Origin: Liolophura sinensis
Taxonomy: Eukaryota > Mollusca > Polyplacophora > Chitonida > Chitonidae
Reading direction: 5' to 3'
Assembly (NCBI RefSeq): GCF_032854445.1
Contig: NC_088304.1
Span: 31,377,732-31,441,731 of the forward strand
Length of the DNA: 64,000 nt
In this document: positions 3,201 through 64,000 of the stretch, one piece after another
How the letters are laid out: the number at the start of each line of letters is the position of its first letter
Numbering within the stretch: the stretch's first letter is position 1
The notes under the pieces: model-generated
Database searches by the model: none
The model's input: the letters and a program-made list of their open reading frames with translations, nothing else
Told to the model about the DNA's origin: nothing
Program-made: the position numbers and the translations under genes

Positions 3201-6200
3201 TGTATAATGGCAATCAGCTCCTGTATAATGGCAATCATACGTGGATCTCCAACATGCAGCGATAGAAAGTTGTGTTTTGTTTGTGTTTATTTTTTATATT
3301 TCTTTTCGCCTGTGAACATCTACCAAGGCCCTACAGATGGAATGTTAAGCTGTTGAATTGTTTTTAGTTTTATAGGCTTTGTGAATGTTTTTAATTATTT
3401 TAATTGATAGATTTGAATTCGAAAATTTAGAAGTTATATAATCTTCACTTTGATTTGTGTTGTAAACACGTTCTCAAGAAATTTAGCCTGCATGCAGGGC
3501 AATAATTTTTTGTATACAGAATTCCTGTGACTTCATTGCGTATGAGGTTTATGGACTTTCCTAGATCTACCATTTTTGTAATCAAGAAAAATTTCATGTA
3601 GGGCTTCCATTTTTTATGCACATGCCTACCTACATGTAGGATAACGAAGGGTATTGGATTCTCCGGCCATTTTACCATTCTCCTGTTTTGTGGACACACA
3701 TTCAGTCATTTTTCTAGATAAGCTTTTTGTCTCTCTAGCTATCCTATAGGTGGTTGGCCATAACAGCCATCTTTGAGGTAAGATTGAGCCTTGCCCACTG
3801 AGTGTCTATTGTTAGAGGTGTCATAAGCTGGACAGAGGCCCATGGCTGGTAAGGGTATGTATTTGGGACACCTGGTCTGCTCATTTTAGCCAATATATAT
3901 GTAATTCTAACAGTAATATTGAGTCCTTTTTTTTTTCTCACATGGTTACACCATCTATTGAACAACATGCTCATAACTTTACTTTTTCAAAAGGCTGAAA
4001 AAGAAATATAATATTCTACTTTCAACACAACTAATATCTGTCCCAAATTTGCAAAGAATTAGGCTGCTCTACCAGATTTGTAGAGTGTAAGAATTGACAT
4101 ACCAGTTTATACCAGTTTATCTGGTGTACACATTATCTGTAGAAAGCTTTCCACATTTGCATTAGTACTAGGAAGTACAGAAGATGCCTGAAATTGAAAA
4201 ACTCTGCCTTTTTTTGTTGATGGGTATGTTAATTCAGATGTGAGGCTTTTACTTCAGACGGACGTTGACATTGTCCAGAGCACTCTGCTGTGCTGTTTAA
4301 TCAGGTGGACATTAATAAATACATGTAGGCTTCTGCCAACAGACAGGTAAAGATGTCTGTTACTATAATACTGTTACTAAGGCTGTTATTGTGCAAACAG
4401 GTTCATGAAAATAGGCAACTCCAAATCTCATCACTGTAACAGCTCAAGAGCTTGTCATGGTCATCAGGTGTGAGTGTAATGTTATCAACTGGTGATGCCA
4501 TAGCTGGTATGCCTATTTCTGGCTGTGACGTGCATATATCTGGCTGGCTGTGCATATGTCCGGCTGTGGTGTGCATATTTCTGACTGCGGTGTGCATGTG
4601 TCTGGCTGTGGTGTGCATATGTCTGGCCGTGGCGTGCCTATTTCTGGCTGTGACGTGCATATATCTGGCTGTGCTGTGCAAATGTCCGGCTGTGGTGTGC
4701 ATATTTCTGACTGTTGTGTGCATATGTCTGGCTGTGGTGTGCATATGTCTGGCTGTGGTGTGCATATGTCTGGCTGTGGTGTGCATATTTCTGGCTGTGG
4801 TGTGCATATTTCGGGCTGTGACGTGCATATATCTGGCTGTGATGTGCATGTATCTGGCTGTGCTGTAAATATTTCTGGCTGTGGTGTGCATGTGTCTGGC
4901 TGTGGTGTAAATATTTCTGGCTGTGGTTTGAATATTTCTGGCTGTGGTTTGAATATTTCTGGCTGTGCTGTACATATTTCTGGCTGCGGTTTGAATATTT
5001 CTGGCTGTGGTTTGAATATTTCTGGCTGTGCTGTACATATTTCTGGCTGTACAAAACTATGCTTATTTCCAGTGGTGTTGCTGATAATTCTGGCAATGCT
5101 GTTTTTAGCAATTGTCCTCATTTCTGGCACCAGGCAGTGCAGTACATATGCTTGGAAGTGCTATACATATGTCTGGCCAATCTGTACATTTATATCTGGT
5201 AGTGGTGTACACTTATATGTGGAAGTGCTGTACATATGTCTGGCAGTGCTGTACTCTTATATCTGGCAGTGCTGTACATTTATATCTGGCAATGCTGCAC
5301 ATTTATATCTGGCAGTGCTGTACATTTGTCTAGCAGTGCTGTACACTTATATCTGGCAGTGCTATACACTCATATCTGTCAGTGCTGTAAATATATGTTT
5401 CCCAGTGCTGTAGCTATTGGCCGTCCCACCCTTGCACATACCCTGTAGCTCTGTGTGCTGATAAACGTGTTGTAAATTCATACCATTAGGCATTCATGAC
5501 ACTATTAACTACCTTAGCTGATAACATTAATGACGGGCATTCAAAGCCAAACCATACATGTCACTATAATATTGGTGCATTTATTCAGCGATGTCAGTTT
5601 TCATACATGTATGAACACTTAATCCTTGTCTCAAGTATAGAACATTTGCTTTACCGTACTAACTTTATTTTTGCTGTGGTCAAAACCAATGTTTTAATGT
5701 TGCAAATTCTGTTGAGAACTAACACAGCATGTTGACTGTATTCTGTTGAGCACTAACACAGCATTTTGACTGTATTCTGTTGAGAACAAACGCAGCATGT
5801 AGACTGTATTCTGTTGAGAACTAACACAGCATGTTGACTGTATTCTGTTGAGCACTAACACAGCATGTTGACTGTATTCTGTCAAGAACAAACGCAGCAT
5901 GTAGACTGTATTCTGTTGAGAACTAACACAGCATGTTGACTGTATTCTGTTGAGAACTAACGCAGCATGTTGACTGTATTCTGTTGAGAACTAACACAGC
6001 ATGTTGGCTGTATTCTGTTGAGAACTAACACAGCATGTTGACTGTATTCTGTTGAGCACTAACACAGCATGTTGACTGTATTCTGTTGAGAACTAAGACA
6101 GCATGTTGACTGTATTCTGTTGAGAACTAAGACAGCATGTTGACTTTATTCTCAACAATGTTGACTGTATTCTGTTGAGAACTAACACAGCATGTTGACT

Positions 6201-12200: not shown

Positions 12201-15200
12201 TGGTAGGGTGTCGTGCCTGCTGTCAGTACACCGTGGTAGGGTGTCATTTCTGCTTTCAGTACACCGTGGTAGTGTGGGGTGTCGTGTCTGGTGTCAGTAC
12301 ACTGTGGGAGGGTGTCATATCTGCTGTCAGTACACAGTGGTAGGGTGTCATGTCTGCTGTCAGTACACCGTGGTAGTGTACGGCGTCGTGTCTGGCATCA
12401 CTACACTGTGGTACATGTAGGTGAGGTGTTGGGTCTGTTGTCAGTACACCATGGTGGTGTGAGGTGTTGTGCCTGCTGNNNNNNNNNNNNNNNNNNNNNN
12501 NNNNNNNNNNNNNNNNNNNNNNNNNNNNNNNNNNNNNNNNNNNNNNNNNNNNNNNNNNNNNNNNNNNNNNNNNNNNNNNNNNNNNNNNNNNNNNNNNNNN
12601 NNNNNNNNNNNNNNNNNNNNNNNNNNNNNNNNNNNNNNNNNNNNNNNNNNNNNNNNNNNNNNNNNNNNNNNNNNNNNNCAATCAGGTATTCCGTACCTTT
12701 TGTAGTGAAGAAAATGGCTTAGATGATGTAGTTGATGGATGTTGAGATAGCTAGATGATGTAGTTGACGGATGGTGAGATGGCTAGATGATGTAGTTGAT
12801 GCATGGTGAGATGGCTAGATGATGTAGTTGATGGGATGGTGAGATGGCTAGATGATGTAGTTGATGCATGGTGAGATGGCTAGATGGTGGAGTTGAGGGA
12901 TGGTGAGATGGCTAGATGATGTAGTTGATGCATGGTGAGATGGCTAGATGATGTAGTTGATGCATGGTGAGATGGCTAGATGGTGGAGTTGAGGGATGGT
13001 GAGATGGCTAGATGATGTAGTTGATGCATGGTAAGATGGCTAGATGATGTAGTTGATGAATGGTGAGATGGCTAGATGATGTAGTTGATGCATGGTGAGA
13101 TGGTTAGATGATGTAGTTGATGCATGGTGAGATGGCTAGATGATGTAGTTGATGCATGGTGAGATGGCTAGATGATGTAGTTGATGGGATGGTGAGATGG
13201 CTAGATGATGTAGTTGATGCATGGTGAGATGGCTAGATGATGTAGTTGATGCATGGTGAGATGGCTAGATGATGTAGTTGATGCATGGTGAGATGGCTAG
13301 ATGGTGGAGTTGAGGGATGGGGAGATGGCTAGATGATGTAGTTGATGCATGGTGAGATGGCTAGATGATGTAGTTGATGGATGGTGAGATGGCTAGATGA
13401 TGTAGTTGATGGGATGGTGAGATGGCTAGATGATGTAGTTGATGCATGGTGAGATGGCTAGATGATGTAGTTGATGGGATGGTGAGATGGCTAGATGATG
13501 TAGTTGATGCATGGTGAGATGGCTAGATGATGTAGTTGATGGGATGGTGAGATGGCCAGATGATGTAGTTGATGCATGGTGAGATCTTTTCTAGTTCTAG
13601 TTTCATTACCATATGCAGTGTATATGTGTGTAATGTATTTTGCCTAAAAATGGTTGGAAAAAAACAACAGGAAACCAATATTACTTTCTGGTGTTGAAAC
13701 TTTTTCTCTAGTAGAATCTCTTCCTACTTGTAGCTGTATATGTATGTACATTCCAGACAAATCCAGAAACAGCTGTCGATTATGTCACTAGAACTCTCAG
13801 AATCAGGGGAAATGACTATCTTAGTCCTAAAGTAATAAGTTTACTGTCTCCCTTCGTCGACTGTGTCTAGCCCTGTGTGTACCCCCACCCCCTACCCTCA
13901 CCCTTTACCATCTCCCTGTAAAAGCTGTTCTAGCTGGCTAGACATCAGATAAGCCCCCCTGTAGCAATATAACTCTCTGGCGGAAACTGTGGACGGCGTT
14001 CCTGTAATAATATTGACAGACAATTTCCTTAATGTAGGTTGGCTCTTGCTAAGATGCAGTTCACCGTGAGAGCGAACAGGGTGAAAATCTTCTCCTTCCC
14101 TGGTCACTACAAGTTATCTGTCTGTTTGTAGAGGAGGCTTGATAGAAAGATGCCTTTGGAACATTTCGGAAGTCGTTATGCCCTTTTCTGTTGACTTTTC
14201 CTATTTCAAAACTACAGGTTACGATATAAACAGAAATACATGTAGACTTAAAGGATTGACCAGTATGTTCATGTGTTCTTCCAGTCATAATATGTCTCAA
14301 GGCCTGTCTTGATCTACCTGATCTGTTTGGTACATTTTTTGTTTTTTTTCTTCCTTGTCATACATGTATATGATTTTGCTGGTCGCAAAATCTGTATTTG
14401 TCACATTTTTTTACTCGGGGCATTTTTTGTTCAGTGTGACAGAATTTTATTTTAGTTATAATTTCAGTGTGGCTCTATGGTGTCTTTTCTGGTGTCACTG
14501 TGTTGAGGTATGGTGGAGTGTTGTGTCCAGTGTTACTGTGCCGTGGTAGATGGTGTCACTCTCCTGTGGAAGGGTGTCGTGTCTGGCATTTCGACATTGT
14601 GATATGTGTACGGTGAGGTGTGTCTGGTGTCAGTACACCATGGTAGGGTGTTATGTCTGGTGTCAGTATACCACGGGAGGGTGTCACGTCTGGCATCACT
14701 ACACAGTGGTACAAGTAAGGGGAGCTGTTGGGTCTGGTGGCAGTACATTGTGGTTGTGTGGGATATCATATCTGGTGTCAGTACACCATGGTAAAGTGTC
14801 ATGTCTGCTGTCAGTATACTGTGATAGGGTGTCATCTCTGGCATCACTACACTGTGGTACATGTAAGGTGAGGTGTTGGGCCTGTTGTCAGTACACCGTG
14901 GTGGTGTGAGGTGTTGTGCCTGCTGTCAGTACACAGTGGTAGGGTGTCATTTCTGCTGTCAGTACACCGTGGTAGTGTACGGCGTCGCGTCTGGCATCAC
15001 TACACTGTGGAACATGTACATGTCAGGTGAGGTGTTGTGCCTGGGGTAACTATGCTGTAGTAAGGTGAGGTGTCGTGTCTGGTGTCAGTACACTGTGGTA
15101 GTGTTGTTTGTCATGTATGCATGGTGTCACTAGACGGTGATAGTGTGGGGTGTTGTGTCTCGTGTCAGTACACCATGGTAGTTTGGGGTGTGTCAGGTGT

Positions 15201-24200: not shown

Positions 24201-27200
24201 ATTAATTAATTAACTTTTAATCTTTAACTACAGCTGTAGTAGTATATTTTCTCATTTTGTTTTATCAGAAAGAGACAGCCGCCGTAAATTTTTAAGACAT
24301 ATTATAAACTTTTAATCTTCTACGTGTAGTATATTTTCTCATTGTTAATCCATATGACATGAACCTTGTTACTGGTCAACAAAACAAAAAATTATTTTGG
24401 GCAAGACTTTCATAATTTATAGGTAATAATAACTGTGTGTAGCATCTGAGATTTTGAGAAAAATATCCTGAGAAACAGATAATTAACCTTGCCTTTATCA
24501 GGTTATGGACACGTTCATGGTTCTAAAATGGATCCATAGAACTACATGTACAGGCTGATTTAAATTCTTCCAGCTCTCTCTAAGATACTTGAAAAGCATG
24601 TGGCAAACCAGATAAATGAATTCTTATCAACAAATGAGCTGTTGCATGAACTACAGTTGTGATCCCATCAATCATTCCAAACTGCACTCACACAAACACT
24701 GCTGATAACCGGCTTTCACGGATGGATAAAGGTCAGCGGGACAGGTATGTTGGATATTGATCTTATAAAGGCATTTGACCTTGTCAGCCACCAACTATTG
24801 CTACAGAAATTGACTTGCTATCAATTTAGTAACAAATGTCTTTCGTGGTTTCAAAGTTACCTATCACACAGAAAACAAAAAGTCTCTTTAGGAAGTGTTC
24901 AATCTGAACTACATGAAATAATGTGCGTAGTCCCCCAGGGCTCTATACCTGGGCCTCCACTGTTCCTTATTTTCATAAATGATCTCCCCCTACAATTATT
25001 GATCTGTTTGTGGATGACACAACGGTATCAACATCAGCCAAAAAAATGGAAAGTGTAGAGACAGCACCAGGAAACAAAAGCAAAAGAATACTGCAGTGGT
25101 GCAACGATAATGACATGGCAATCAACCGTGATAACACAACGTGCATCACAGGTGGTTCATGGCAGTGTATAGCTAATTGGGAGAGAAAACTTCACTTAGA
25201 AATTGATGGACAAGAAGTTGAAAATGTCAAGTATACAAGGCTTCTAGGTGTAACAAATTAATGATAGGTTGTCCTGAGAGAAACAAACTGAGAATCAGTG
25301 TAAATCTACATCATCCAAGCTCACATTGTTACAAAAGATTAAAAAGTATCTACCACACCATGCCAGAATTTTGTTGTATGATGCTTATGTACAATCATTG
25401 TTGGATTACTTTCACACAATATGGTGCAGTGGTTCTAAAGAGTCAATTCAATGTATGTTACTCCTTCAGAAATGTGCAGCACGGATTAATTTTAAATGTA
25501 CAATATACGACACCAAGTCAAAACTGTTCAGAATCTTGAAATGGATGACGATGTATGAAACACTCATGCTGCACAAAGACGTACTAAGGTTAAACACCTA
25601 AACGGACTAACCGCAAGCTACCCCTATCAGCCTGTTTATCTACACTGCAACTTTCTATCAAACTAACCTTCGATTTACCACCTCCATGAACCTCATCCCC
25701 CCCAAAACCTACAACCAGTGCCATTAAAAATTCTTTCAGATATTCTGGGGTGACATTGTGGAGCCGACTGCCTATACACGTTAAAAAAATCACAGAATGT
25801 CAGTGTGTAGTCTTTGATCATCTTACATCAGGTTCATCCGTATTTTATATATACTGTATAGACTTTGTAAATAACCTTTTGTGTCAATCTCTGTATGCAC
25901 GCGGGACTTATTGATCTCCTTCAAAAAATAACGTATTATTATTATTATTATCGTTATTATGTGATCAGTGGTTTCTATGGTGAACCCTGATTGGCCAAGT
26001 GAATAAAGTTGTTTGTATGGGAGGAAACCAGGCAGAGCCCTGGAGAAACCTACAACCATGGGCTTGTTGCTGGCAGACCTTTCCATGTACGTCAGGAGAG
26101 GAAGCCAGCCTCGAACTGGACTTGAACTCACAGCGGTCGCATTGTTGAGAGGCTCCTGGGTCATAATAGTGCAACACTAGCATTCTAACCACTAGGCCAC
26201 AGAGCCACTAAAAGTTAAAAAGCATTTCCACTGTTAGTATGTATGCATGTACATGTAGCGTGTCTGTGTTTTTTTGTTGTTTTTTTTTATATTTATACTG
26301 CAGGTTACTACCCTTTTGGTTCCCTTTAGTTTAAACACGGTTTAGTCTACACCTGAGAAAGTTTTGGATTTCAGGTATCTGTATGTCACGTCTCAGGTTC
26401 TGAGTATTGCAACTCTCAGCTTATGTCAGCTAAGTGTTGTCATAGCAACTAGAATTCAATCTGGATGGCTTTCAGCAAAATAACCATGCCTGATTAAATA
26501 ATTCTGTTATCAAAAGGAATATTGATAAAGGATTATGTGGTCATATGAAATAAGTATCTGGCTGGCGTAATGCAAAATCGATTGAAGCATTTCTCTGTTT
26601 TTTTGTCTGTTTTTACCTCATTAGGATTGCAGCCGACGGTTTCCCTTGCGCTCAGTTCCAAGTAAGTTTAATCAATACCCTTGTTTATATTCAATTCTCA
26701 AGAATTAGCAGATTTGTTTTCTTATGTACAATAAATGTATCTTCAATCTATAAAATGAGAGCTGGAATATTCTGGAGCATGTTAAGTGAAAAGGAAATTA
26801 AATGAATTGTGGCTGAATCCATCCTAAAAAATAACATTTACTGCTGGGCAATAAATTTGCCGGTGTCCAAGTAGAGGTAACTGTGATTAAACCTGTCATC
26901 GTGCACCATATCCAAGAAAGATGCCCCAAGCTGTCACCTACCCAGTTTGCCTCTCCATCTGCAGGCGCCAGTGATTCAGACTGCTATTGTTTTTTCTCCC
27001 ACCACTGTGCATGAAACTGTTAACATATTAGCAGGCCTCCATCATCAGTCCTGTACAGGGGCCAGAATGTTTGGGTATTCACTGGTTTTTGATTGTTTAG
27101 TTCTTTATTTGATTGGTGTTTTATGCCATACTCAAGACTACATTTATTTCACTTATGCAGGAAATGGCCAGCATAAAAAATATGATGTTTGGAAACTGGG

Positions 27201-45114: not shown

Positions 45115-48100
45115 GTGGGATTACAGAGGAAAATGAGAAAGAAAGTGATTTGATATAGCTCCTGGGTAGGCCCGCCTGAAGCTGTGTTGACAGTGAGATA
45201 ATAGATGATCTAAAACATCAGTGATCTATACAAGCATTGCATTATTTTTTTGCCATTCTGTCACAAGAGTTACCTCCCTCTTCGAAAATGACAGATGTAG
45301 TTCAGCGAGCTAAATGATCTCCTCATTCAACATTCTGACATTTACCTATTCTGCCGACCGAATGAACGTCAGAAATATTAATATGGAGTTAGTACATTTA
45401 ACGTTGTTGAAACATTTATTTATTAGCTCATCAGGCAGGGAAACGTAGTAAGCAATGCTGAACGTCGATCATAAGACCTCTAGCTCTATACGTGGACAGT
45501 TTCACTGAAAATAACTCAAACCCTACATTAACTTTGCCAAAAATTTGTGGAGTTCCATCAAAGTGAACAAAGCGGTTTTAACACATGTATGTGTACAAAA
45601 AGGTGGCATTCTAGAATAGTTATTGAGGGAGATCATATATCACTAGCTTATTCAAAAGTGGAAAGTACATGTACCATTGGGAAACTTCAGCCAGCTCAGT
45701 GAACTTACCCCGAGTGATTCGTTCAGTTGTCCATCTGGCTAAACTCTACTAATATTAGTCCCAGTTAATATGTAGATCCAGCACACTGGTGGGCCAATTC
45801 CCCAAAGCCGTTTCTGGCTTTATAGACTGAAGTCTAAATTTGAAATACGATCTTAAAGCTTATTTTGGACTTTAAAACTTTACATTGTCTCCACTTCATC
45901 AATGTTATCTTAGACAAATGTGTCCAAATTTCAACTTCGTGTACCAAAAAATAATTTACAACTCTGAATCCAGAAGTCTTCAAGACTGTAAAAGTATCAA
46001 AACCTTAAGTTGTAAACCATCCTTCAACAGTAATCCAGCCATTAAAACTTATGATTTGATAATATCGCTATTTAGTTTATTAAAACTGACCCTACTATTC
46101 TACTACATTAGCAGAAGTTATTCCCCTTTGTTTATGAGTATATATTTCACCATAAACAATTTCGCCTGTTTCACCCATTCTTACTATGGCAAATCTAACC
46201 AATCCAATAGAGGAGTTTCAACATGGATCTCTTTTGTCTTCAAAGGTAAAAACAGTCGTACTGTGGCTTTGTGAATGGTGAGAAATGTTTGGCAACCTTG
46301 TTGAAATTGATTTACTAATCACCTGCTTCACCCTTTTCCAGAGGAATTACCCCTTTCCTTTAGAAACTACTCCAAGTTTCACAAAAAAATTTCTCTTCTG
46401 TCTATTCTAAATTATTTTTTATGACACCTATTATAGAAGCCCATGTTATAGTGAATGTGATGAAAAACAGTCTCAACAGCCCATTGCTCTACAATACCAA
46501 ACTCCACTGTTTCTTACCGTCTAGGTTTTGGGGTTGGTGCAGCATTCGGCTTGTTCACAGCAGGTATTGACCCCATGTCAACCATAACCACGGAAACCCC
46601 GACCACAAAAATTGTGCTGCGCGAGATGAAAAATAGAGCACTCTCATATGGAAAGAACTTTGCGGTGGTGGGATGTATGTTTGCAGGGACAGAGTGCTTG
46701 TTAGAAAGTGTAAGTTCTGGGGCCGATTCCAAAAAGCCATTTCTGACTTAAGTCAAAATTTGAAATACGATCTTAGAGCTTATTTTTACACATTACCATT
46801 TTGTCCACTTCATCAATGTTAGAATTTAAATTTTGACTTAAAGGAGAAGAAAACTTAAAACAATGACACTGTAGGCTGAAAAGAGCACATTTTTTTCTAT
46901 CTGGTTGTGCCTGCTGCATAATTTTGCGGTTTTTCCTTGCCATGCACGTAATGCTTAAAAACGACAAAGCTGGCATAAATCGCTGAGTCCTACGCATGCT
47001 CCATCTTTAAAACCCTGTAATTTATGCTGGGGGTATGTTGCCTCTCAGCCAATGTGAGTCGTTAAAACTGCCGGCTTGTTCCTGTAACTCGGAACCCACG
47101 TCAACATTCTAGTTTCCCGATCGTCAAGCGGAAAACGAACTGTACTGTTCGCTACCTTCTGGGAAGAAGAGTTCTACCGGAATTGTACGAACTGCACTTT
47201 GGCGGTTTCTGGCGGCAATTCTCCCCCTAACACAGAAGACTAGTTCCTATGCAAAATGGAGTTGCCCACAGCGCATTTTGGTGCTGACTTTATTTATAAT
47301 TTATCAACTTGAGGTACATATTAGAATTTTTTTATGGCATGCACCTGCGAGGAAATGCATACTCTTTTCAATGGTATTTGTTTGATATTTAAATTTTCTT
47401 CTCCTATAAGTCAGAAAAAGCTTTGTTGATTTGAACATTTTGAGGAGAGTTGTGACGTTAATAGTAGGCTTTATTTGTTGATGGTAATCACTTAAAAGTC
47501 GAGAAACGGGGGTGAAATTTGATTTTAAAAGAATTTGATGGAAATATTCCAAACATTGGTGCTATGCAAGGGGAATTAAGGAGCGGATCGTGGCCGAGAT
47601 GCTCAACTTTCACACTTTGAAAGTGGAGCACTTTTAACTTTGTGGATCACCTTGGTCTCACTGTCGATGGGTAAGGGTTCAATCCAGGCCTTTAGCTTTG
47701 TGGATCACCTCGTTCTCACTGTCGATGGGTAAGGGATTAATCCGGGCCTTTAATTTTGTGCATCACCTTGGTCTCACTGTCGATGGGTAAGGGTTCAATC
47801 CAGGCCTGTAACTTTGTGGATCACCTTGGTCTCACTGTCGATGGGTAAGGGTGCAGTCCAGGCCTTTAACTTTGTGGATCACCTTGGTCTCACTGTCGAT
47901 GGGTAAGGGTTCAATCCCGGACTTTAACTTTGTGGATCACCTTGGTCTCACTGTCGATGGGTAAGGGTTGAGTCCAGGCCTTTAACTTTGTGGATCACCT
48001 CGTTCTCACTGTCGATGGGTAAGGGTTCAATCCGGGCCTTTAACTTTATGCATCACCTTGGTCTCACTGTCGATGGGTAAGGGTTCAATCCGGACTTTAA

Positions 48101-51100
48101 CTTTGTGGATCACCTTGGTCTCACTGTCGATGGGTAAGGGTTGAGTCCAGGCCTTTAACTTTGTGGATCACCTCGTTCTCACTGTCGATGGGTAAGGGAT
48201 TAATCCGGGCCTTTAATTTTGTGCATCACCTTGGTCTCACTGTCGATGGGTAAGGGTTTAATCCGGGCCATCAACTTTGTGGATCACCTTGGTCTCATTG
48301 TCGATAGGTAAGGGTTCAATCCGGGCCTTTAACTTTGTGCATCACCTTGGTCTCACTGTTGATGGGTAAGGGTTCAGTCCAGGCCTTTAACTGTGTGGAT
48401 CACCTCGTTCTCACTGTCGATGGGTAAGGGTTCAATCCGGGCCTTTAACTTTATGGATCACCTTGGTCTCACTGTCGATGGATAAGGGTTCAGTCCAGCC
48501 TGTAACTTTGTGGATCACCTTGGTCTCACTGTCGATGGGTAAGGGTTGAGTCCAGGCCTTTAACTTTGTGGATCACCTTGGTCTCACTGTCGATGGATAA
48601 GGGTTCAGTCCAGGCCTGTAACTTTGTGGATCACCTCGTTCTCACTGTCGATGGGTAAGGGATTAATCCGGGGCCTTTAATTTTGTGCATCACCTTGGTC
48701 TCACTGTCGATGGGTAAAGGTTGAGTCCAGGCCTTTAACTTTGTGGATCACCTCGTTCTCACTGTCGATGGGTAAGGGTTTAATCTGGGCCATCAACTTT
48801 GTGGATCACCTTGGTCTCACTGTTGTTGGGTAAGGGTTCAGTCCATGCCTTTAACTGTGTGGATCACCTCGTTCTCACTGTCGATGGGTAAGGGTTCAAT
48901 CCGGGCCTTTAACTTTGTGGATCACCTTGGTCTCACTGTCGATGGGTAAGGGTTTAATCCAGGCCTTTAACTTTGTGGATCGCCTCGTTCTTACTGTCGA
49001 TGGGTAAGGGTGCAGTCCAGGCCTTTAACTTTGTGGATCACCTCGTTCTCACTGTCGATGGGTAAGGGTTTAATCCAGGCCTTTAACTTTGTGGATCACC
49101 TTGGTCTCACTGTCGATGGGTAAGGGTGCAGTCCAGGCCTTTAACTTTGTGGATCGCCTCGTTCTCACTGTCGATGGGTAAGGGTTCAATCCAGGCCTTT
49201 AACTTTGTGGATCACCTTGGTCTCACTGTCGATGGGTAAGGGTTGAGTCCAGGCCTTTAACTTTGTGGATCGCCTCGTTCTTACTGTCAATGGGTAAGGG
49301 TTCAATCCAGGCCTTTAACTTTGTGGATCACCTTGGTCTCACTGTCGATGGGTAAGGGTTCAGTCCAGGCCTTTAACTTTGTGGATCACCTAGGATTAAA
49401 CCCTATCGATGGGTAAGGGTTCAGTCCAGGCCTTTTTGGATCACCTTGGTCTCACTGTCGATGGATCACCTCGTTCTTACTGTCGATGGGTAAGGGTTGA
49501 GTCCAGGCCTTTAACTTTGTGGATCAGCTTGGTCTCACTGTTGATGGGTAAGGGTTGAGTCCAGGCCTGTAACTGTGTGGATCACCTTGGTCTCACTGTT
49601 GATGGGTAAGGGTTGAGTCCAGGCCTGAAACTGTGTGGATCACCTTGGTCTCACTGTCGATGGGTAAGGGTTTAATCCGGGCCTTGGTCTCACTGTCGAT
49701 GGGTAAGTGTTCAATCCGGGCCTTTAACTTTGTGGATCGCCTCGGTCTCACCCACGATGGGTAAGGGTTCAATCCAGGCCTTTGTGCATCACCTCGGTCT
49801 CACTGTTGATGTATAACTGACAGTAAGTGTTGATGATCCTTGTGTGGGCGTTTGCACAGCTTAAAGACCACATGACTTCCAACAGTATTGTGTGCATATA
49901 TTTATGTTACATGAGGGAAAGTCAGTAAGTTTAATACCAAAGGTTGATGGTTTACCACAGACACTCCAGTTTCTTCCACTTACTCAACCATTGTGTGAGT
50001 AAAAAATTCTTGAATATGGCTTAAACCAATAATTAAATAAATTAATAAATCAATAAAGTAAATGGTGTATAAAGATATTCATTTATATCTGGCCAGGAAG
50101 CTGAGCAGAGCCCACAGGAAATGTGCCCGTCTGTTAACCTTTTGACGTGAGATATCAACTGAGCTAGTGGTACTGGATTTGGCATGTGTTTGCGGTTTCG
50201 CGCTAAAGATGCCTTAAATCACACATGACCAGAGCTTTTGGGAATCCCGTTTTTTCCAGGGAGTAGCCATTTTTCATAACGGGTAGCTCGTGGACTGTGA
50301 CCTAATTTGTTACTTAGCAGCTGCACTCCCAGTGTGAAAGTGGTTCTGCAGATGCTGACACCTTATCCAGTTATGATTTGATATCCATTGTTCATAATGC
50401 AACTGAGCTGATATCTGCTTTTGTTATGTTGTAGTATCGCGGGAAGACAGAGTTACTGAACGGGACCTTGTCAGGAGCCATTGTTGGAGGAGTGCTTGGT
50501 GTCAGAGGTGGGATCTTATACAATCTAATTTAATAAAATTCGGACGCAGGCTCAAACCTGGTCTTGGACATGGAATTTGTAGCTTTCACTGCATGCTTGA
50601 TGACAATAAGCAGTCAGCGATGCCTCTATCATTTGTCAGGGTTTTCTCCCAAGTACGGTTTACTTCACCCATAAAACAGGGCAACGGCATATAGGGCAAA
50701 AAATTCTTCAATACCCATACAGAATAAAGCAACAGTCCGATAAATAAATACCAGTAAATATGTCAGGAGATTTGTGAAATACCAGTATCATTTTTTTCAC
50801 TGTATTCTGCCTGATCCGAAATCTGAATGCCATAGTGAAACTTTTTTGAGTGGGATGGAACATCACTTCCATGTAAATTAGTAAATAAATATATAGATGC
50901 CCTCATCATTCCTCAGAGTTGAGCCAAGACTGTGGATTGTAAACGAACCCAGCAACCTGTGGATGGTCGTGGGTTTCTCCCAGGCTCTGCCAGGTTTCCT
51001 CCCACCATAATGCTGGCTGTCGTCGTATGAGTGAAATATTCTTAAGTACACCAATCAAATAAATAAATAAACGAATTGTGACATTAACTGATTTCGTCTA

Positions 51101-55649: not shown

Positions 55650-55655
55650 TTTATT
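55650..55655 (-). terminator. Polyadenylation signal of the neuropeptide gene
   Basis: AATAAA on the minus strand lies about 120 bases after the stop at 55774 and is followed by a T-rich stretch. Confidence 0.65.
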
Positions 55656-55773: not shown

Positions 55774-56597
55774 TCAACCCAATTTGTAACCTCCACCCAG
55801 TACATTGCCGAAGAGTCGCTTAGCCATTGATATAGCACCCTTCATCACACGTCCGTCATCTTGGAATCCGGCCTTGTTTCTACCATTGCCCAAATTGCTG
55901 GATAGAATTGCCCGGTAGATAGTGCTGAGGGCGTTCGCGGAATTATCCCTTTTGCCAAAATTAAACCCTTTGTTGAAGAGATTTCCCCAGGGGCGTTTTG
56001 CCATTTCCAGACCCTCATTTCTGGCAGAGATGGGCTCCGCTTGTTCTCTCTCGTCACTGCGTTTGCCGAACTTGTATCCCCCGCCCAACACTCCTCCGAA
56101 CCCGCGTTTGCCGAACTTGTATCCACCTCCCAAGACTCCTCCGAACCCGCGTTTACCGAACTTGTATCCTCCGCCGAGGACGCCACCGTATCCTCTTTTC
56201 CCGAATTTATACCCGCCTCCTAAGATATTTCCATACTGCCTCTTTTCCTCCTTGCTTATTTCATCCTCGTACTCTCGCTCGTCGACATCGGCGCGATGGC
56301 CGAACAGGGGTTCATAGTTCTCCTTGTGTCCGAGTTTAAATCCGTCGTCAAAAATATTCTGATAAATATTGGACGGAAGGGCGCTATCCTCTTCTGGGAT
56401 GATTTCACTCTCTTCTTCTTGCAGTTCGCTTCGTTTTCCCAGCCCCTTCATGTTAAACAAGCTTCCGAAAGGGCGTTTGTCTAATGGCGCAAATCGGCCA
56501 CCGTATTCTTGGTCTCCGGGAAATCCCACAGCGGGCGCCAGGACGTTTCTTACGGAACGCCTAGGACGGGGATCTGTCAACCGACCTGCTCTGATAC
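55774..56597 (-). CDS. Neuropeptide precursor with seven amidated GGGYKF-type peptides (3' coding exon)
   Basis: An 824-base terminal exon starts at a strong acceptor (CTTTTTTTCTCCCTTTTCAG, then GTATCAGAG) and ends at TGA. There is no ATG at its start; the first base pair completes a codon split in phase 1, so the signal peptide lies in an upstream exon. Products between KR sites with C-terminal Gly amide donors: PFGSLFNMKGL, QYGNILGGGYKF (pyroGlu possible), GYGGVLGGGYKF, GFGGVLGGGYKF twice, PWGNLFNKGFNF and the C-terminal LFGNVLGGGYKL, whose Gly is directly followed by the stop. An eighth, degenerate copy (QNIFDDGFKLGHK) has lost its dibasic site. Spacers are acidic (ELQEEESEIIPEE, REYEDEISKEEK), as in secreted prohormones. 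I do not recognise the peptide family; KF-amide endings are not those of FMRFamide or allatostatin A. Secretory granule processing by PC2/PAM is inferred. Confidence 0.92.
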
Positions 56598-57326
56598 CTG
56601 AAAAGGGAGAAAAAAAGACGGAAATGTATTCACAGTTTCGAGCACCCGGGTTCCTGGCAAGGAGCGGGGGGTGATAAAAAACATGGAGCGAAAGGCTGAT
56701 TTTTTGCTATTCTTGAAGTTTAAAGCACTAAAGAACACTGAAACAATGTGCTGATGATTGTCTCAGAGCAGCCGTGACATCGCAGCAAAACTGTGAATTA
56801 CTTGCATCGAAGATTCAAAAGACTTTGTGTGCCACGTGAAAGGTAGGGGTTTTCAGTAATCCGTAAAAATATTTCATACTGTCGTATAACAGACCTATAG
56901 ATATGTGGTGAAAGAGGCTGTGTTTGCGGAACCGTTCGAAAGTTTATCTTTGGGCATATAAACGTCGCGTGTGCCAGAAATACCAGCGGCTCACGTGGAC
57001 AGGCAAGTAACAAAACGAAGATTTTCTTAATAAATCACACTTGAAATCTGATACACATGTTCAGGGAAACAAACACCGGCCTGTATACAGAATTGTACTT
57101 TGAGCAATATGATTGTAAAATGGCGTCACTCCCTGTACCGTGCTCTCCATGTTCGTGCATGCAATAGGGCAATAAGCGGCCAAAGACCCTTGTGTGAACT
57201 ATTGCGCAGTCTAACGTACGTTGAAAACCACCTGTCTTCCACCAGTATGGGGTACAAATCCACACACGTCACTGGTGGGAAAATTAGTCATGTGCCAAAG
57301 GTGGTAGGGGCGTGTAAATTGCTACT

Positions 57327-57610
57327 ACTTATGCATTTACCTTAACAGTTAGAAAAAAAACCCTGACTGAGGTAAATTGACAAGAGGCTGTATTTCACCG
57401 GTTATGTGTGACCATTTGCCAGCTATCACACTGTCGTCGCAGCTCGGGGCCCGGTTTCACCAAGCACTCTTAACGTTACGTTCACCTAACTACCAGGGCA
57501 ACCAGTAGGCTACTGCAGGCATTACGTCGTCATGAGGTTAAGAGGAGGTAAGGTTAAGAGAGCTTCGTGAAACTGAACCCTGGCCTTACTATCTGTGCTG
57601 TAAGTCTTAA
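57327..57610 (+). repeat. Duplicated segment, unexpanded copy
   Basis: CTACTACTTATGCATTTACC, AACAGTTAGAA, CTGACTGAGGTAAATTGACA, AGAGGCTGTATTTCACCGGT, CCATTTGCCAGCTATCACAC and TGTCGTCGC match 61451-61575. One 48-bp monomer follows, split by the palindromic element at 57447; its second half TGGCCTTACTATCTGTGCTG resumes at 57581. Confidence 0.85.
57447..57580. mobile_element. 134-bp palindromic element inserted in a 48-bp monomer
   Basis: Arms GGGCCCGGTTTCACCAAGCA, CTCTTAAC and GTTAAGAGAGCTTCGTGAAA, CTGAACCC are inverted with five or so mismatches. The core GTCGTCATGAGGTTAAG is the inverse of the core at 19480. Flanks CGG and TGG may be a 3-bp target duplication with one change. Confidence 0.8.
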
Positions 57611-59249
57611 AGTATAATTATCTAGCATGTTAATATATAGAATAGATTGATTCCTGTAGTTAAACAGCGATTTGCCCTTATATCAAGGGGGCCAACCTCA
57701 CCAGTTATTTGCCATCTAAATTACGCTGACAGGTAGATTGATATTACCTTAGCATCGGTGTCTGAATTAAATTTGGAAGTCTAAGCATTGATGATGAGTT
57801 ACTTATACGCTGATATAATTAAGCATCAATGTTAACATCCCCGTCTTTAGTGATAAAACTGCCGTTTTTGTTACCGGTGGGGAGAGGGATAGACAAAACA
57901 GGAGCGGATTTTCCTTAATAAACATTGTCAAGGTAATTATTTCGTCCAGCTAAGAAACTTGATCTTGTCCGGGGCGTGTAAATGCTGCCATTTACAGAAA
58001 ACATTGCTTACATGTTTTACATGAAACCACATCGGTAATAGTTTGTATACCCATGCGTTTTCTTGCGACTCATTTGACAAGTGACATCGCTCGGGTTACA
58101 CATTTAGATCGACCACAGAGGGAAAACCCCCAAAAAGCGACATAAAAAGGACCTGTGTATTATCAGGAATGATTAATCGAATCTAAACCAAAATGTAAAC
58201 ACACAGAAAGAGTGTATTCACCTCTAACTATATATGACTACAGTCAAAAAATGAATCTACTAAGTTTATTCAGATGTCCGCGTGATGCTAGGATGTATTC
58301 TGTTATTACAGCATAACACTGGATCATATTCAACATAATATCCTGTTAGTCTAATGGAATCTTTATGCTGAATTAATACGATTATTATATTTAACACAAT
58401 AATCTACTGCAATAGCAGAATATATTCTAGCATCACCCAGACAACGAACTTACTGTTAAATTTAACTGATTACTTGTTTGAGGGTATAGGAACGGCAATG
58501 CTCATAAAGGATCACAACAGGTGACTTTACAAAGTTGTAAAACGATAAAAGAAAGTTCAACAAAATACCAGTTCAGGTGTAATGCGTGGTCTTTTCAAGG
58601 CAAGGTACAATTTGCTGTGTGGTTATACGTTTAGTGCCGCCATTTCACGTTTAATCCTAACAATTAAAGACTTGTTTTATCCGATTTTCTGGACGAGAAT
58701 AAAAGATATGTGCAATTCATGGGATATTGTTTGCCCATCGTCTCGTACACACGTTCTTGTCCCTACTCACTTTGTATACATGTAACACTATTGATTTAGC
58801 TGTTGCTGTTTAAAGCGAACACTGAGCAATTCCGCCCAGTCTGTGATTAGGAAAACGTGATAGGGGGGTTAAATATTCATCGAGTTGGACTAGCGACAGC
58901 TTACACACGCTTGTCCCGCGGTAAAATGCGGGAGTTGGCCCGGATTTAACATGGACAACCGAAATTCCCTCGAAATGATGAGAGCAGACAAAAGCTGTAA
59001 CAGGCTTAATGGACATTTACGCGTTAAGGCGTCGACGAGAAAAACAGATTTTACGAGAACCGTCAATCGGGTCCATCTGAGAAATGTGCCAAGATGACAA
59101 AAGGCGTTCCAAGTGCTCATCATACATCTTATTTAACTATTCGGGCATTAAAACCACGATGTGCTGAAGAACCAATACGATTTTTACATTGCTACCCTGT
59201 TTCCCCATGTTTATAAAGAGCTCTCACGTACAAGAGTTCCCTGCCCTCA

Positions 59250-59277
59250 ATGGGGGGTGGGGGGGGGGGGGGGGTAG
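59250..59277 (+). repeat. G-rich tract
   Basis: GGGGGGTGGGGGG... is about 27 bases of G with one T, then TAGGG. It can form a G-quadruplex and is prone to length error. Confidence 0.9.
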
Positions 59278-59389
59278 GGCGGCATCGGTACCGATCTTAA
59301 TTCGATCAGTAAGATGTTCATATCTGTACGTCACATGTCAGAAAGTTCTTCATTGACTTTTCAAACATCGGTGGTTTTTACCAGGCACT

Positions 59390-59436
59390 TTGATTTCCTC
59401 CACCCATAGTGCGCAGAACAATCAAATAAATAAATA
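59390..59436 (+). mobile_element. SINE tail remnant
   Basis: GATTTCCTCCACCCATAGTG then CAGAACAATCAAATAAATAA keeps only pieces of the SINE 3' end. Confidence 0.5.
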
Positions 59437-60076
59437 ATGTAATATAAGGCCATGCTGAATATACTGAGACCTGTATCGATGATCCAAGTATTGGATGGTT
59501 AGGTCTGAACACAAGTTATCCAATGAATAAGACGCTATGAATAGAAGCGGAACTTTAAGATCGTCTAGCTATAAAAGAAAGCGATTTCGATAAGGCTGAC
59601 CGACTCTAAAATTATGCTGAAAGCGATGTTTAACATGTGCGGAGGAAACGAAAAGTAAATTTTGGGTAATATATTCAAAAACATTGACAACCGCTAGTTA
59701 CACGTGACGGGTGTTGTAAGGTGGCACGTTTCGAAACAAAACCGGAGTTGCTTTTTGAATCAAGCTGACTTCAAGTTTAGGGACATTTTTTGAAAACTTG
59801 CCCGGTACACTTAAGCTAAACATTGAGTTATTGGCCTTTAGGGAAGCATGCTTATGTCGGCTTACACGTTTCTCTTTCTCAGACACGTAAACAAATAAGC
59901 TTTAACAGCACAATGTTGGGTATTTGTTCTTTTTTTTTCTTTTAAGGTCGAATCTGTGATGGCAAACCAGGTACTTGATCGTGAAACTACTACAACTGTT
60001 TTCATAACGTCGTTTGCACTCGCGAAGACGTTTTATGTAAACGCTAAACTCGTACAACTCATTTAAATAATTATCT

Positions 60077-60141
60077 GGGCCCAGTTTCACAAAGATGTCG
60101 CACACGTGCGATATCGCACGACGCTTTGTGAAACTTGACCC
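60077..60141. mobile_element. 65-bp hairpin element, family GGGCCGGTTTCA
   Basis: GGGCCCAGTTTCACAAAG and CTTTGTGAAACTTGACCC form the arms, with an inner GTGCGATATCGCAC palindrome. The termini match the larger elements at 19440 and 57447. Confidence 0.75.
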
Positions 60142-60796
60142 TGATGCATGCGTGTTTAAATGTTTAATGTGAATATTATCTTGTTTAAATATATCCAATA
60201 CAGATTGATGAAATTAAACTTTTACTTTACGGATAGAACTGAAACATCTTTTATTCAAATCTTAAAGATCTATGTACGGGTTTACATGTGAGATAACTTT
60301 ATATGCAGGGTGATGTCACTTCTCGCCTAATGCTGTGGTCACCTGGCGAACTGTCAGTCTAATGGCGGATGTCCCGACCACAAAACCAAGGCTTCAAAAT
60401 CCATGCATGCCGTGCATAAAATTGATTCATCAGATAGGCATGCTGGTACAGAAGAGAATAAGACTCTCCTCTTGTGTTGATCTTGCTCATTTCTGCCCAG
60501 GTGATAAGAGAGAAATTGACATTTCACTGCTTTTTCGTCTTTGGCAAATTGCCAGATAATTTCCTACCCGAGCCCTACTTGCTGGCTTGTAGTCTTCCGC
60601 GTGATCGGTTCCGGTAATTCCACGAATTCCACTCAATGTTTCCGAAACAAACATGTGGAAATCTGATTGCCTGAACTCGGCTTTGCGAACAAAGCTTGCA
60701 TTTGATAGAAATATTTTGTCTCGACATGTGATCAGCGCCTATGCAAAGAGAGCCATGGGGTCCTGATGATCGTTAAGATATAGGCCAATAGCGGTC

Positions 60797-60835
60797 GACG
60801 AATCCACATAATAATAATAATGATAATAATAGCGC
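60797..60835. repeat. ATA/ATT microsatellite
   Basis: ATAATAATAATAATGATAAT...; read on the minus strand it encodes a run of Leu/Ile that mimics a signal peptide. Confidence 0.85.
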
Positions 60836-61450
60836 GCCTAACAAAAGTAACAAAAGTAACAAAATAATAATGACAGGGAGCCGTGACATGGCGAAGTGCG
60901 TCTGAAACTTGCGGTTGGTGTCGGGTATATATACGGTTGTGCATTCGAATGTTTTTTGAAAACTGAAAGGACTGGTCAGAGAAAACAAGAAAAATGGGGG
61001 AATCTTGATATCGTGGTAATACACAATCCTAATGTAGCTGCAAAACCAGGGATAAACTCACAACAACCTCTACGAGCCTGTGGAATGCTTTACAGTCCAA
61101 AATGGCTGACAGTTCATAGCCTAACATTTTTACTTGGGAGGGATATCTACGTAGATAAGAAACCATCTTCATAATTCCACACAACCTTCGTGTTCATGAG
61201 GCGTTGACAATACACAGGGACCAGTGAGGCAAGTTAAGTCTCAGTTTTCCTTATTTCTTTCGTTCCAGTGTAATAAATAAGCATAAAATAATGTGTTGTG
61301 TACCTTCACGAAGAATGAAATTACAAAAGTTGACCGGAAATTTCACTGACTGGCTATAAAGCTTATCGATTGATAGCCAATGAAAACTGATATTTGAAGC
61401 TATCTCGAACAAACACGTCTTTTGGCATAATGAAAGCGTCTGGATAATTG

Positions 61451-62085
61451 CTACTACAATTTACGCATTTACATAAACAGTTAGAATAAAAGCCTGAGTG
61501 AGGTAAACTGACAAGAGGCCGTATTTCATCGGTTGCGTGTTGCCATTTGCCAGCTATCACACTGTCGTCGCTGCTCTGGTCTTACTCTCTGTGCTGTACG
61601 TCTATCACACTGTCGTCGCTGCTCTGGTCTTACTCTCTGTGCTGTACGTCTATCACACTGTCGTCGCTGCGCTGGTCTTACTCTCTGTGCTGTACGTCTA
61701 TCACACTGTCGTCGCTGCGCTGGTCTTACTCTCTGTGCTGTACGTCTATCACACTGTCGTCGCTGCGCTGGTCTTACTCTCTGTGCTGTACGTCTATCAC
61801 ACTGTCGTCGCTGCTCTGGTCTTACTCTCTGTGCTGTACGTCTATCACACTGTCGTCGCTGCTCTGGTCTTACTCTCTGTGCTGTACGTCTATCACACTG
61901 TCGTCACTGCGCTGGTCTTACTCTCTGTGCTGTACGTTTATCACACTGTCGTCGCTACGCTGGTCTTACTCTCTGTGCTGTACGTCTATCACACTGTCGT
62001 CGCTGCTCTGGTCTTACTCTCTGTGCTGTACGTCTATCACACTGTCGTCGCTGCGCTGGTCTTACTCTCTGTGCTGTAGTCGTAT
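61451..62085 (+). repeat. Duplicated segment with 48-bp minisatellite, eleven copies
   Basis: The segment to 61575 matches 57327-57440. The 48-bp unit CTATCACACTGTCGTCGCTG, CTCTGGTCTTACTCTCTGTG, CTGTACGT is then repeated about eleven times with very few changes. Because 48 is a multiple of three, all three + frames stay open for 180-195 codons. One reads YHTVVAALVLLSVLYV repeatedly but has no ATG. Confidence 0.95.
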
Positions 62086-63126
62086 TATGAACAATCATAC
62101 AAGGGCCTTATTTATCCAAATTCCAAAGTGTTAAGCAGAATCGTATTAATTCTCACGCGTATCTCTGACTTATTTACACTTTCCACATTATCACGTTAGC
62201 TCGATGGTTTTCAGGTGTGGCCCACCTGTTCACTTCACAAAAATCCATTATCACTCAACATTAACAGCTCGAGACTTGTTAATATCTAGCAAACCTAAGC
62301 ACTCCAATCTGTTAATTTTATTGTTTCGACATTGGAAATGTGCGGGGTACTCGGCAGGACACGCGCGCTTTGGTGTCGCTCTGCCTGTGAGGGAAGCACA
62401 CCTGCTGGGATGCAGGTGTAGACATTTGTCAAGTTTAGAGCAACCCTATCAATATTAAGTGCGGTTCGAGTAAAACCAGTCATGAGCGAATTCCGTAATG
62501 GTTTTATAATCCTGCACGCGTTTTACTTATTAACATCTTGCTAATTAATGATTAACGAGCGTTAATTGTAAAATCTTCTCATTAAACAACGATAGAATTA
62601 TGGATGTTGCTGAATGAATGGCAGCCATTTTGAGTTCCGCTGAAACATCCGTTTGGATATACGTGTAAAAGAATATATACTGCACGTGGACAAAGTACGA
62701 GTTCGCAAAAGGGTGACTGCAATATATTATATTATATTTTCTCTGCATAAACCAGTCGAATCAGAAAGGCATTAAATGATAATGATCAGTACAAGTCTGA
62801 AACATATATTCAAACTATTTCCATTATTTTCGCTTTCTTTTCATAAGAAAAGGATATTGCACAGTGAATTATTTCTACCTTTCACGAGAACAATATTTAT
62901 GCTATTCAAGCTTCACTGTGCAATATTCTATTTATTATTTATATCCTGACATTTTCCCTACATGTATATAAATGTGTATCAGTTTGTCTGTTGCATTTTG
63001 CAATTTCGTTCACATCCGCGCTGACAAAACCTTTTTACACTTTTAAACGCTGTCTGTAAGTAATTATACATTCTACAAAGGTACTTAATGCTAATGCAAT
63101 ATAGGTATGTACGTAAATTAAGCACA

Positions 63127-63240
63127 TGAAGAATTTCCACCTCTTTTTTTGGCGAACTATATATATTGCGCGGAAGTGCACGGCCTTGTGATGCGTGACG
63201 TAGGAATGTTAAAGTCAGCTTGCTGAGCTCGGATTGGAAC
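63127..63240 (-). promoter_or_regulatory. Candidate promoter: CCAAT, CRE-like site, TATA box
   Basis: On the minus strand in order: CCAAT (63237-63233), TACGTCA (63202-63196, a cAMP-response half site and more), and TATATATA (63166-63159). The expected start site is near 63133. The first ATG downstream is at 63127. The spacing is that of an ordinary RNA polymerase II promoter facing the neuropeptide exon 6.5 kb away. Whether it drives that gene is inference. Confidence 0.45.
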
Positions 63241-63829
63241 GTCATAAATCAAAGTAGAGACCTGTATTTGGAAGTTCAACTTGTAACTTGCAACTTCAAA
63301 CTAGAATAGATAAACTAATTCAGATTTGAGCTCAGAAGTTCGGAGTTACAACTTGTAACCTCTATCTAAAGGTCTCTCTAATGTTTCTTCTTTGACGTGA
63401 TGGCGTCTGGGTGTGCAATAACAAAAGTGATATCTGACTGAGCCAGTGAGATATCACTTTTATCTGTGAAGGAAATCCTAACATTTCATCTTTATATAAA
63501 TAATAAATGCATGTATATCTGATGTCCGCGAAGAGCTCACAATCGTAATGCATGGTAGTGTATCTGTATACGAAAAGAAATTTTTTCCATGCAGAATTAA
63601 GATAAAAACAATGCCCATGGTAAAGACAAATCTATACAGGGCGTGATTTATTCATTGAAAATGTCGTCTCCATGGACAACAGCAATAGATCAGTTTCACA
63701 TTCTCCACGCGGCATGCGTGCTACTGAAGTTAAATTGCGACTTGACTTTGTCAAGTGCGTGTTATACAGGCCAAGTTCGGTGGGTTACATTTTTGTCAAA
63801 ACGCAAACATGACTGTATAGTCATATAAT

Positions 63830-63872
63830 TGAAGGATTCTCAGTACAGAGTTAAATACCAATCAAATACAGC
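63830..63872 (+). mobile_element. SINE tail remnant
   Basis: GGATTCTCAGTACAGAGTTA then AATACCAATCAAATACA is a decayed SINE 3' end. Confidence 0.45.
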
Positions 63873-64000
63873 GCATTAAAAATTAAGTTAAGGCTCAAAC
63901 CCTAGAATGCATCGCATCTAAATACAGAGCAAATGGAATTGTAATGGCTTCAAAATAGGCTAAAGTTAGTTCTGGACATGTTTATAACTTGAAAAATACG

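Follow-up and report, generated by a model that had tools for sequence, protein, structure and literature searches.

The chiton Liolophura sinensis very probably possesses a gene for a multi-copy amidated neuropeptide precursor, a judgement which leaves its family link aside. The last coding exon lies at 56597..55774 on the minus strand of the window, that is, the whole stretch of 64,000 nucleotides which was analysed (C10:31377732-31441731). By its sequence the gene is real, and together with a signal-peptide exon just beyond the window this exon is predicted to give a complete precursor. The precursor is probably a member of a little-studied family of molluscan neuropeptides which includes the ILGGGYKFamide of Lymnaea, and possibly the oyster PFGx8amide as well. 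An amidated multi-copy neuropeptide precursor had already been proposed in a preliminary description of this DNA, and it is well supported by the KR/GKR-bounded, Gly-terminated peptides and the predicted signal exon.

The precursor exon and its peptides

The open frame listed for the minus strand spans 56706..55774. In the span given in the preliminary description the plus-strand frame contains stops. The features of the exon and its surroundings are:

55774..56597, minus: final coding exon of the precursor, with the acceptor TTTTCAG/GT of a phase-1 intron at 56598/56597 and the stop TGA at 55776-55774
56440..56472, minus: PFGSLFNMKGL-amide, KR before and GKR after, fitting the oyster name pattern PFGx8amide
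56332..56373, minus: decayed-looking copy SNIYQNIFDDGFKL, GHK after, without a dibasic site
56203..56238, minus: QYGNILGGGYKF-amide, last 8 residues as in Lymnaea ILGGGYKFamide
56158..56193, minus: GYGGVLGGGYKF-amide, KR/GKR-bounded
56113..56148, minus: GFGGVLGGGYKF-amide, copy 1, KR/GKR-bounded
56068..56103, minus: GFGGVLGGGYKF-amide, copy 2, KR/GKR-bounded
55957..55992, minus: PWGNLFNKGFNF-amide, KR/GKR-bounded, divergent member
55780..55815, minus: LFGNVLGGGYKL, followed by Gly and stop (KLG-stop), hence no KR after
55650..55655, minus: candidate polyadenylation signal AATAAA, 118 bases between it and the stop codon

Seven amidatable peptides are encoded, all preceded by KR, six followed by GKR and one by Gly and the stop codon. 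The last one, LFGNVLGGGYKL, would be amidatable without carboxypeptidase trimming, and the N-terminal Gln of QYGNILGGGYKF-amide is possibly present as pyroglutamate. The spacers between the peptides are acidic. Positions 1-6 follow the pattern x-[FYW]-G-[NSG]-[ILV]-[LF] throughout (7/7), the end LGGGYKF is found in four peptides and LGGGYKL in a fifth, and the exact string ILGGGYKF occurs in one of the seven. The earlier count of seven GGGYKF copies plus two divergent members has to be replaced by five GGGYK[FL] copies and two divergent members, which make seven in all. GN at positions 3-4, formerly taken as a shared motif, is present in two of the five GGGYK copies, and GG in three; the single decayed copy which had been described can be retained, as SNIYQNIFDDGFKL-GHK at 56373..56332 does look decayed.

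Six GKR signals are found in the 274 codons of the exon. When the bases of the exon were shuffled 20,000 times, six or more never occurred and the maximum was three, so that the count lies far beyond chance. The precursor gave no match at E up to 1 to Pfam, in a scan of seven proteins of which two were matched, and none at E up to 1 to the PDB sequences.

The predicted signal-peptide exon

For the N-terminal part of the precursor 49,768 bases were added upstream in five pieces, and the minus-strand scan covered 57,171 bases. The predicted features are:

64644..64554 in extended numbering (C10:31442375..31442285), minus: signal-peptide exon, donor ATG/GTAAGT, phase 1
56598..64000, minus: predicted intron as far as it lies within the window, its full length being 7,956 bases, with the signal-peptide exon beyond the window

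The exon at 64644..64554 begins 644 bases beyond the window end and encodes MMILPLSILLLTAILSVSATSHGAQTQQRY. It is hydrophobic, opening with MMILPLSILLLTAILSVSA, and its phase 1 matches the acceptor at 56598/56597. Judged on hydrophobicity it would encode a signal peptide, and the in-phase splice, with its predicted joint, yields a precursor of 304 residues. Its donor score of 10.6 is the highest of the phase-1 candidates in the 57,171 upstream bases, and a phase-1 match with a donor score of at least 10 and a hydrophobicity of at least 2.8 appeared in 1 in 20 local shuffles of the upstream region. With the thresholds relaxed to donor 9 and hydrophobicity 2.6, two further candidates appeared on the same strand, one in phase 1 (donor 9.2, hydrophobicity 2.61) and one in phase 2; on the complement strand there was none in phase 1 and one in phase 2. 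Within the window the phase-1 scan yielded three rows, which fall at two places and have poor donors throughout. The preliminary description would have taken the lack of a signal-peptide exon spliced to 56597 as a refutation; a fitting exon is found, by prediction, just outside the window.

The ATG of this exon is preceded, two bases off, by a pyrimidine tract and CAG, which would be an acceptor of its own, and a non-coding 5' exon therefore probably precedes it. An additional exon may also lie within the 7,956-base predicted intron.

Selection and age of the copies

Among the five GGGYK copies the ten pairs gave a pooled pS of 0.83 vs a pN of 0.156, figures which are descriptive, as the pairs share ancestry and the sites are few, and pS exceeds 1 in two of the ten pairs as a small-sample counting effect. 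For the LGGGYKxG core the ten pairs add up to 52.0 synonymous differences at 59.3 sites, against 7.0 non-synonymous differences at 180.7 sites. Two GFGG copies are close to each other (pS 0.30, pN 0), with three synonymous differences in 13 codons and no others. As pS is far above pN, the copies, the GFGG pair aside, appear to be old and the peptide to be held alike by selection. The recent tandem duplication of near-identical copies which had been suggested earlier therefore fits the GFGG pair alone. A functional peptide is supported by the purifying selection under which the copies stand.

Uniqueness in the genome and look-alike genes

The species, first named Liolophura japonica, has since been renamed Liolophura sinensis (PMC12441733). 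The genome searched is 609,464,459 bases long and is assembled in 632 contigs. Protein and pattern searches found no second locus in it, a missing match being no proof of absence, and the gene is apparently single. The precursor search at E up to 10 gave four matches, two of them at its own locus; the weak matches on C11 (E 0.046) and C13 (E 2.56) were read as tandem-repeat frames and rejected as paralogues.

The searches for look-alike genes were limited to the CCK/sulfakinin and LASGLVamide types. A CCK/sulfakinin-type gene was located at C4:19689116 (within C4:19687616-19690638), encoding KRQGGWDYDYGLGGGRFGKRTPGDYGIGGGRFGRD and also RQGGWDYDYGLGGGRFGKRTPGDYGIGGGRFGRD. Its precursor carries DYDYGLGGGRFamide and DYGIGGGRFamide in a two-peptide layout as in bivalves. 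The pattern search for this family gave two matches in the genome vs three for the reversed control, and the C4 gene is therefore recognised by its context and not by the count; a match of the same search on C11 was discarded as a short G-run frame. The LASGLVamide gene was found at C12:25446243-25446931 (within C12:25444743-25447768), with 17 pattern matches against none in the control, mostly FVDPLASGLVGKR.

Other features of the window and the genome

At 46464-46748 on the plus strand the window contains an open frame matching the Tim17/Tim22/Tim23 family (PF02466, E 7.5e-14), presumably most like TIMM22; it could usefully mark synteny around the peptide gene. A reverse-transcriptase fragment (RVT_1, E 2.2e-11) at 24663-25055, plus strand, is probably a retroelement remnant. 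Long tandem arrays are frequent, with 21 rows at a score of at least 300, for example at 4505-5050, 47633-49684 and 61554-62078; those at 4.5 and 61.5 kb, where several frames of either strand are open, are unlikely to be genes. Between tandem arrays, at 12479-12678, stand 200 consecutive N, an assembly gap or a withheld stretch.

Read with the invertebrate code, a mitochondrial locus elsewhere in the assembly showed three long frames, including cytochrome oxidase I. Seven of the eight COX1 matches in the genome lie on C99 (108,685 bases), about 15.5 kb apart, and the eighth on C632; C99 consists of head-to-tail copies of the mitochondrial genome and is probably an assembly artefact.

Reports of related peptides

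Allatostatin A/buccalin peptides end in FGL or GGL amides, FMRFamide peptides in RF, myomodulins in LRL, luqins in RY and SCPs in PRM. None of the seven chiton peptides has any of these endings.

A peptide ILGGGYKFamide with m/z 853.4535 is among six identified peptides localised in the central nervous system of Lymnaea stagnalis, and mass imaging gave a higher abundance in specific ganglia (PMC8172996); most of the 98 Lymnaea peptides of that study are grouped by prohormone in its Supplementary Table 1, where a prohormone of ILGGGYKFamide may be named. The mass computed for ILGGGYKF-amide is 853.493, so that the printed value is 46.3 ppm lower. For the five other named Lymnaea peptides the agreement is to 6.6-7.9 ppm in four cases and to 15.4 ppm in one. 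A Gln form, ILGGGYQF, would fit the printed mass at -3.7 ppm. Due to this mismatch the identification of the Lymnaea peptide may be tentative.

In the oysters Pinctada fucata and Crassostrea gigas PFGx8amide was introduced as a new family, maybe a molluscan or lophotrochozoan innovation (PMC4200219). PFVx7amide is named as its scallop counterpart (PMC5996578), and PMC6282093 repeats the oyster names. In the main texts of the literature searched, no named family, precursor or function was found for GGGYKF peptides. Such a peptide did not occur in the main texts of PMC8557429 (searched by word starts, and for PFG/PFV), PMC6425005, PMC5996578, PMC4200219, PMC5455113 and PMC8735849, nor in those of PMC4408573, PMC6523705, PMC8398477, PMC8270824 and PMC10036341, precursor sequences being usually placed in supplements. 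The preliminary description had called the family unassigned. This holds in so far as no named family was found for GGGYKF, but ILGGGYKFamide is on record from the central nervous system of Lymnaea and the PFGx8amide pattern is fitted by one of the peptides.

Alternative explanations

That the gene represents the CCK/sulfakinin family in the chiton is extremely improbable. Both share LGGG before an aromatic amide end (bivalve peptides in PMC5996578 and PMC4200219), but the chiton genome has the separate two-peptide gene on C4, and the motif DY..GG(G)RF is present in none of the seven peptides. A divergent precursor of the LASGLVamide or pedal-peptide type is improbable as well: PFGSLFNMKGL does resemble the scallop peptide PFGQLANGLIamide, which is included in LASGLVamide (PMC5996578), at PFGxL.N, but the core LAxGL is found in 0/7 peptides and the gene on C12 is a clear and separate LASGLVamide gene. 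Glycine-rich repeats behind a predicted signal peptide would also be expected from a secreted structural or antimicrobial protein which is not a neuropeptide precursor; KR ahead of every peptide, GKR or a terminal Gly-stop behind it, the acidic spacers and the missing Pfam match argue against such a protein and make it very improbable.

More weight is due to the idea that the precursor is specific to chitons and without relatives, the likeness to Lymnaea and oyster peptides being chance or mistaken identification, although this too is rather unlikely. The deviating Lymnaea mass fits it, and among the literature searched LGGGYKF was found in print only in PMC8172996. De Oliveira et al. (2019; PMC6425005) included chitons, and YKF, GGY and PFG gave no match in the main text of their paper, but they call their own neuropeptide list a minimum. 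Against a chiton-specific precursor stand the eight identical amidated residues reported from the central nervous system of another mollusc (PMC8172996) and the x-[FYW]-G frame shared by all seven peptides, one of which meets PFGx8. 

A broader reading, a real possibility though somewhat less likely than not, joins the chiton gene to the ILGGGYKFamide of Lymnaea, the PFGx8amide of oysters and the PFVx7amide of scallop in one family, which would predate the split of chitons and shelled molluscs and have an undescribed receptor.

Proposed function and significance

Secretion, cleavage at KR, trimming and amidation are established steps of neuropeptide biosynthesis. The chiton precursor would be led by its signal peptide into secretory granules and cut at KR by a prohormone convertase, a carboxypeptidase would trim the products, and the amidating enzyme would convert the Gly to a C-terminal amide. 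Neurons would then release the peptides, a G-protein-coupled receptor would read their conserved part, and purifying selection would keep the copies alike. A modulatory role is suggested by the localisation of the Lymnaea peptide to specific ganglia, and purifying selection, in holding the copies alike, speaks for a real receptor.

A complete predicted chiton precursor is now available for a peptide reported from the ganglia of Lymnaea, from which chitons are separated by a deep split within the molluscs. If the orthology is true, a family would be added to the ancestral molluscan set and differently named peptides would be joined. If all of them are one family, the names would be brought together by the chiton precursor, in which a PFGx8 peptide stands beside GGGYKF peptides.

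Comparison with known systems

The closest likeness is to the Lymnaea ILGGGYKFamide, which is identical to the last eight residues of QYGNILGGGYKF-amide and is likewise amidated; it differs in the printed mass, and the comparison is one of the peptide alone (PMC8172996). The bivalve PFGx8amide and PFVx7amide are multi-copy amidated peptides of a length similar to the chiton peptides. PFGSLFNMKGL-amide fits the oyster name letter for letter, in a comparison by name pattern alone, but the start PFG is seen in one of the seven chiton peptides, the looser x[FYW]G in all of them. The molluscan CCK/sulfakinin peptides, ending in DYGLGGGRFamide in bivalves (PMC5996578, PMC4200219), resemble the chiton peptides in LGGG ahead of a Phe-amide end and differ in the RFamide, the DY core, the number of two peptides and, in the chiton genome, the separate gene. 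LASGLVamide shares with the chiton peptides the short multi-copy amidated form bounded by GKR, but it has another core and a chiton gene of its own.
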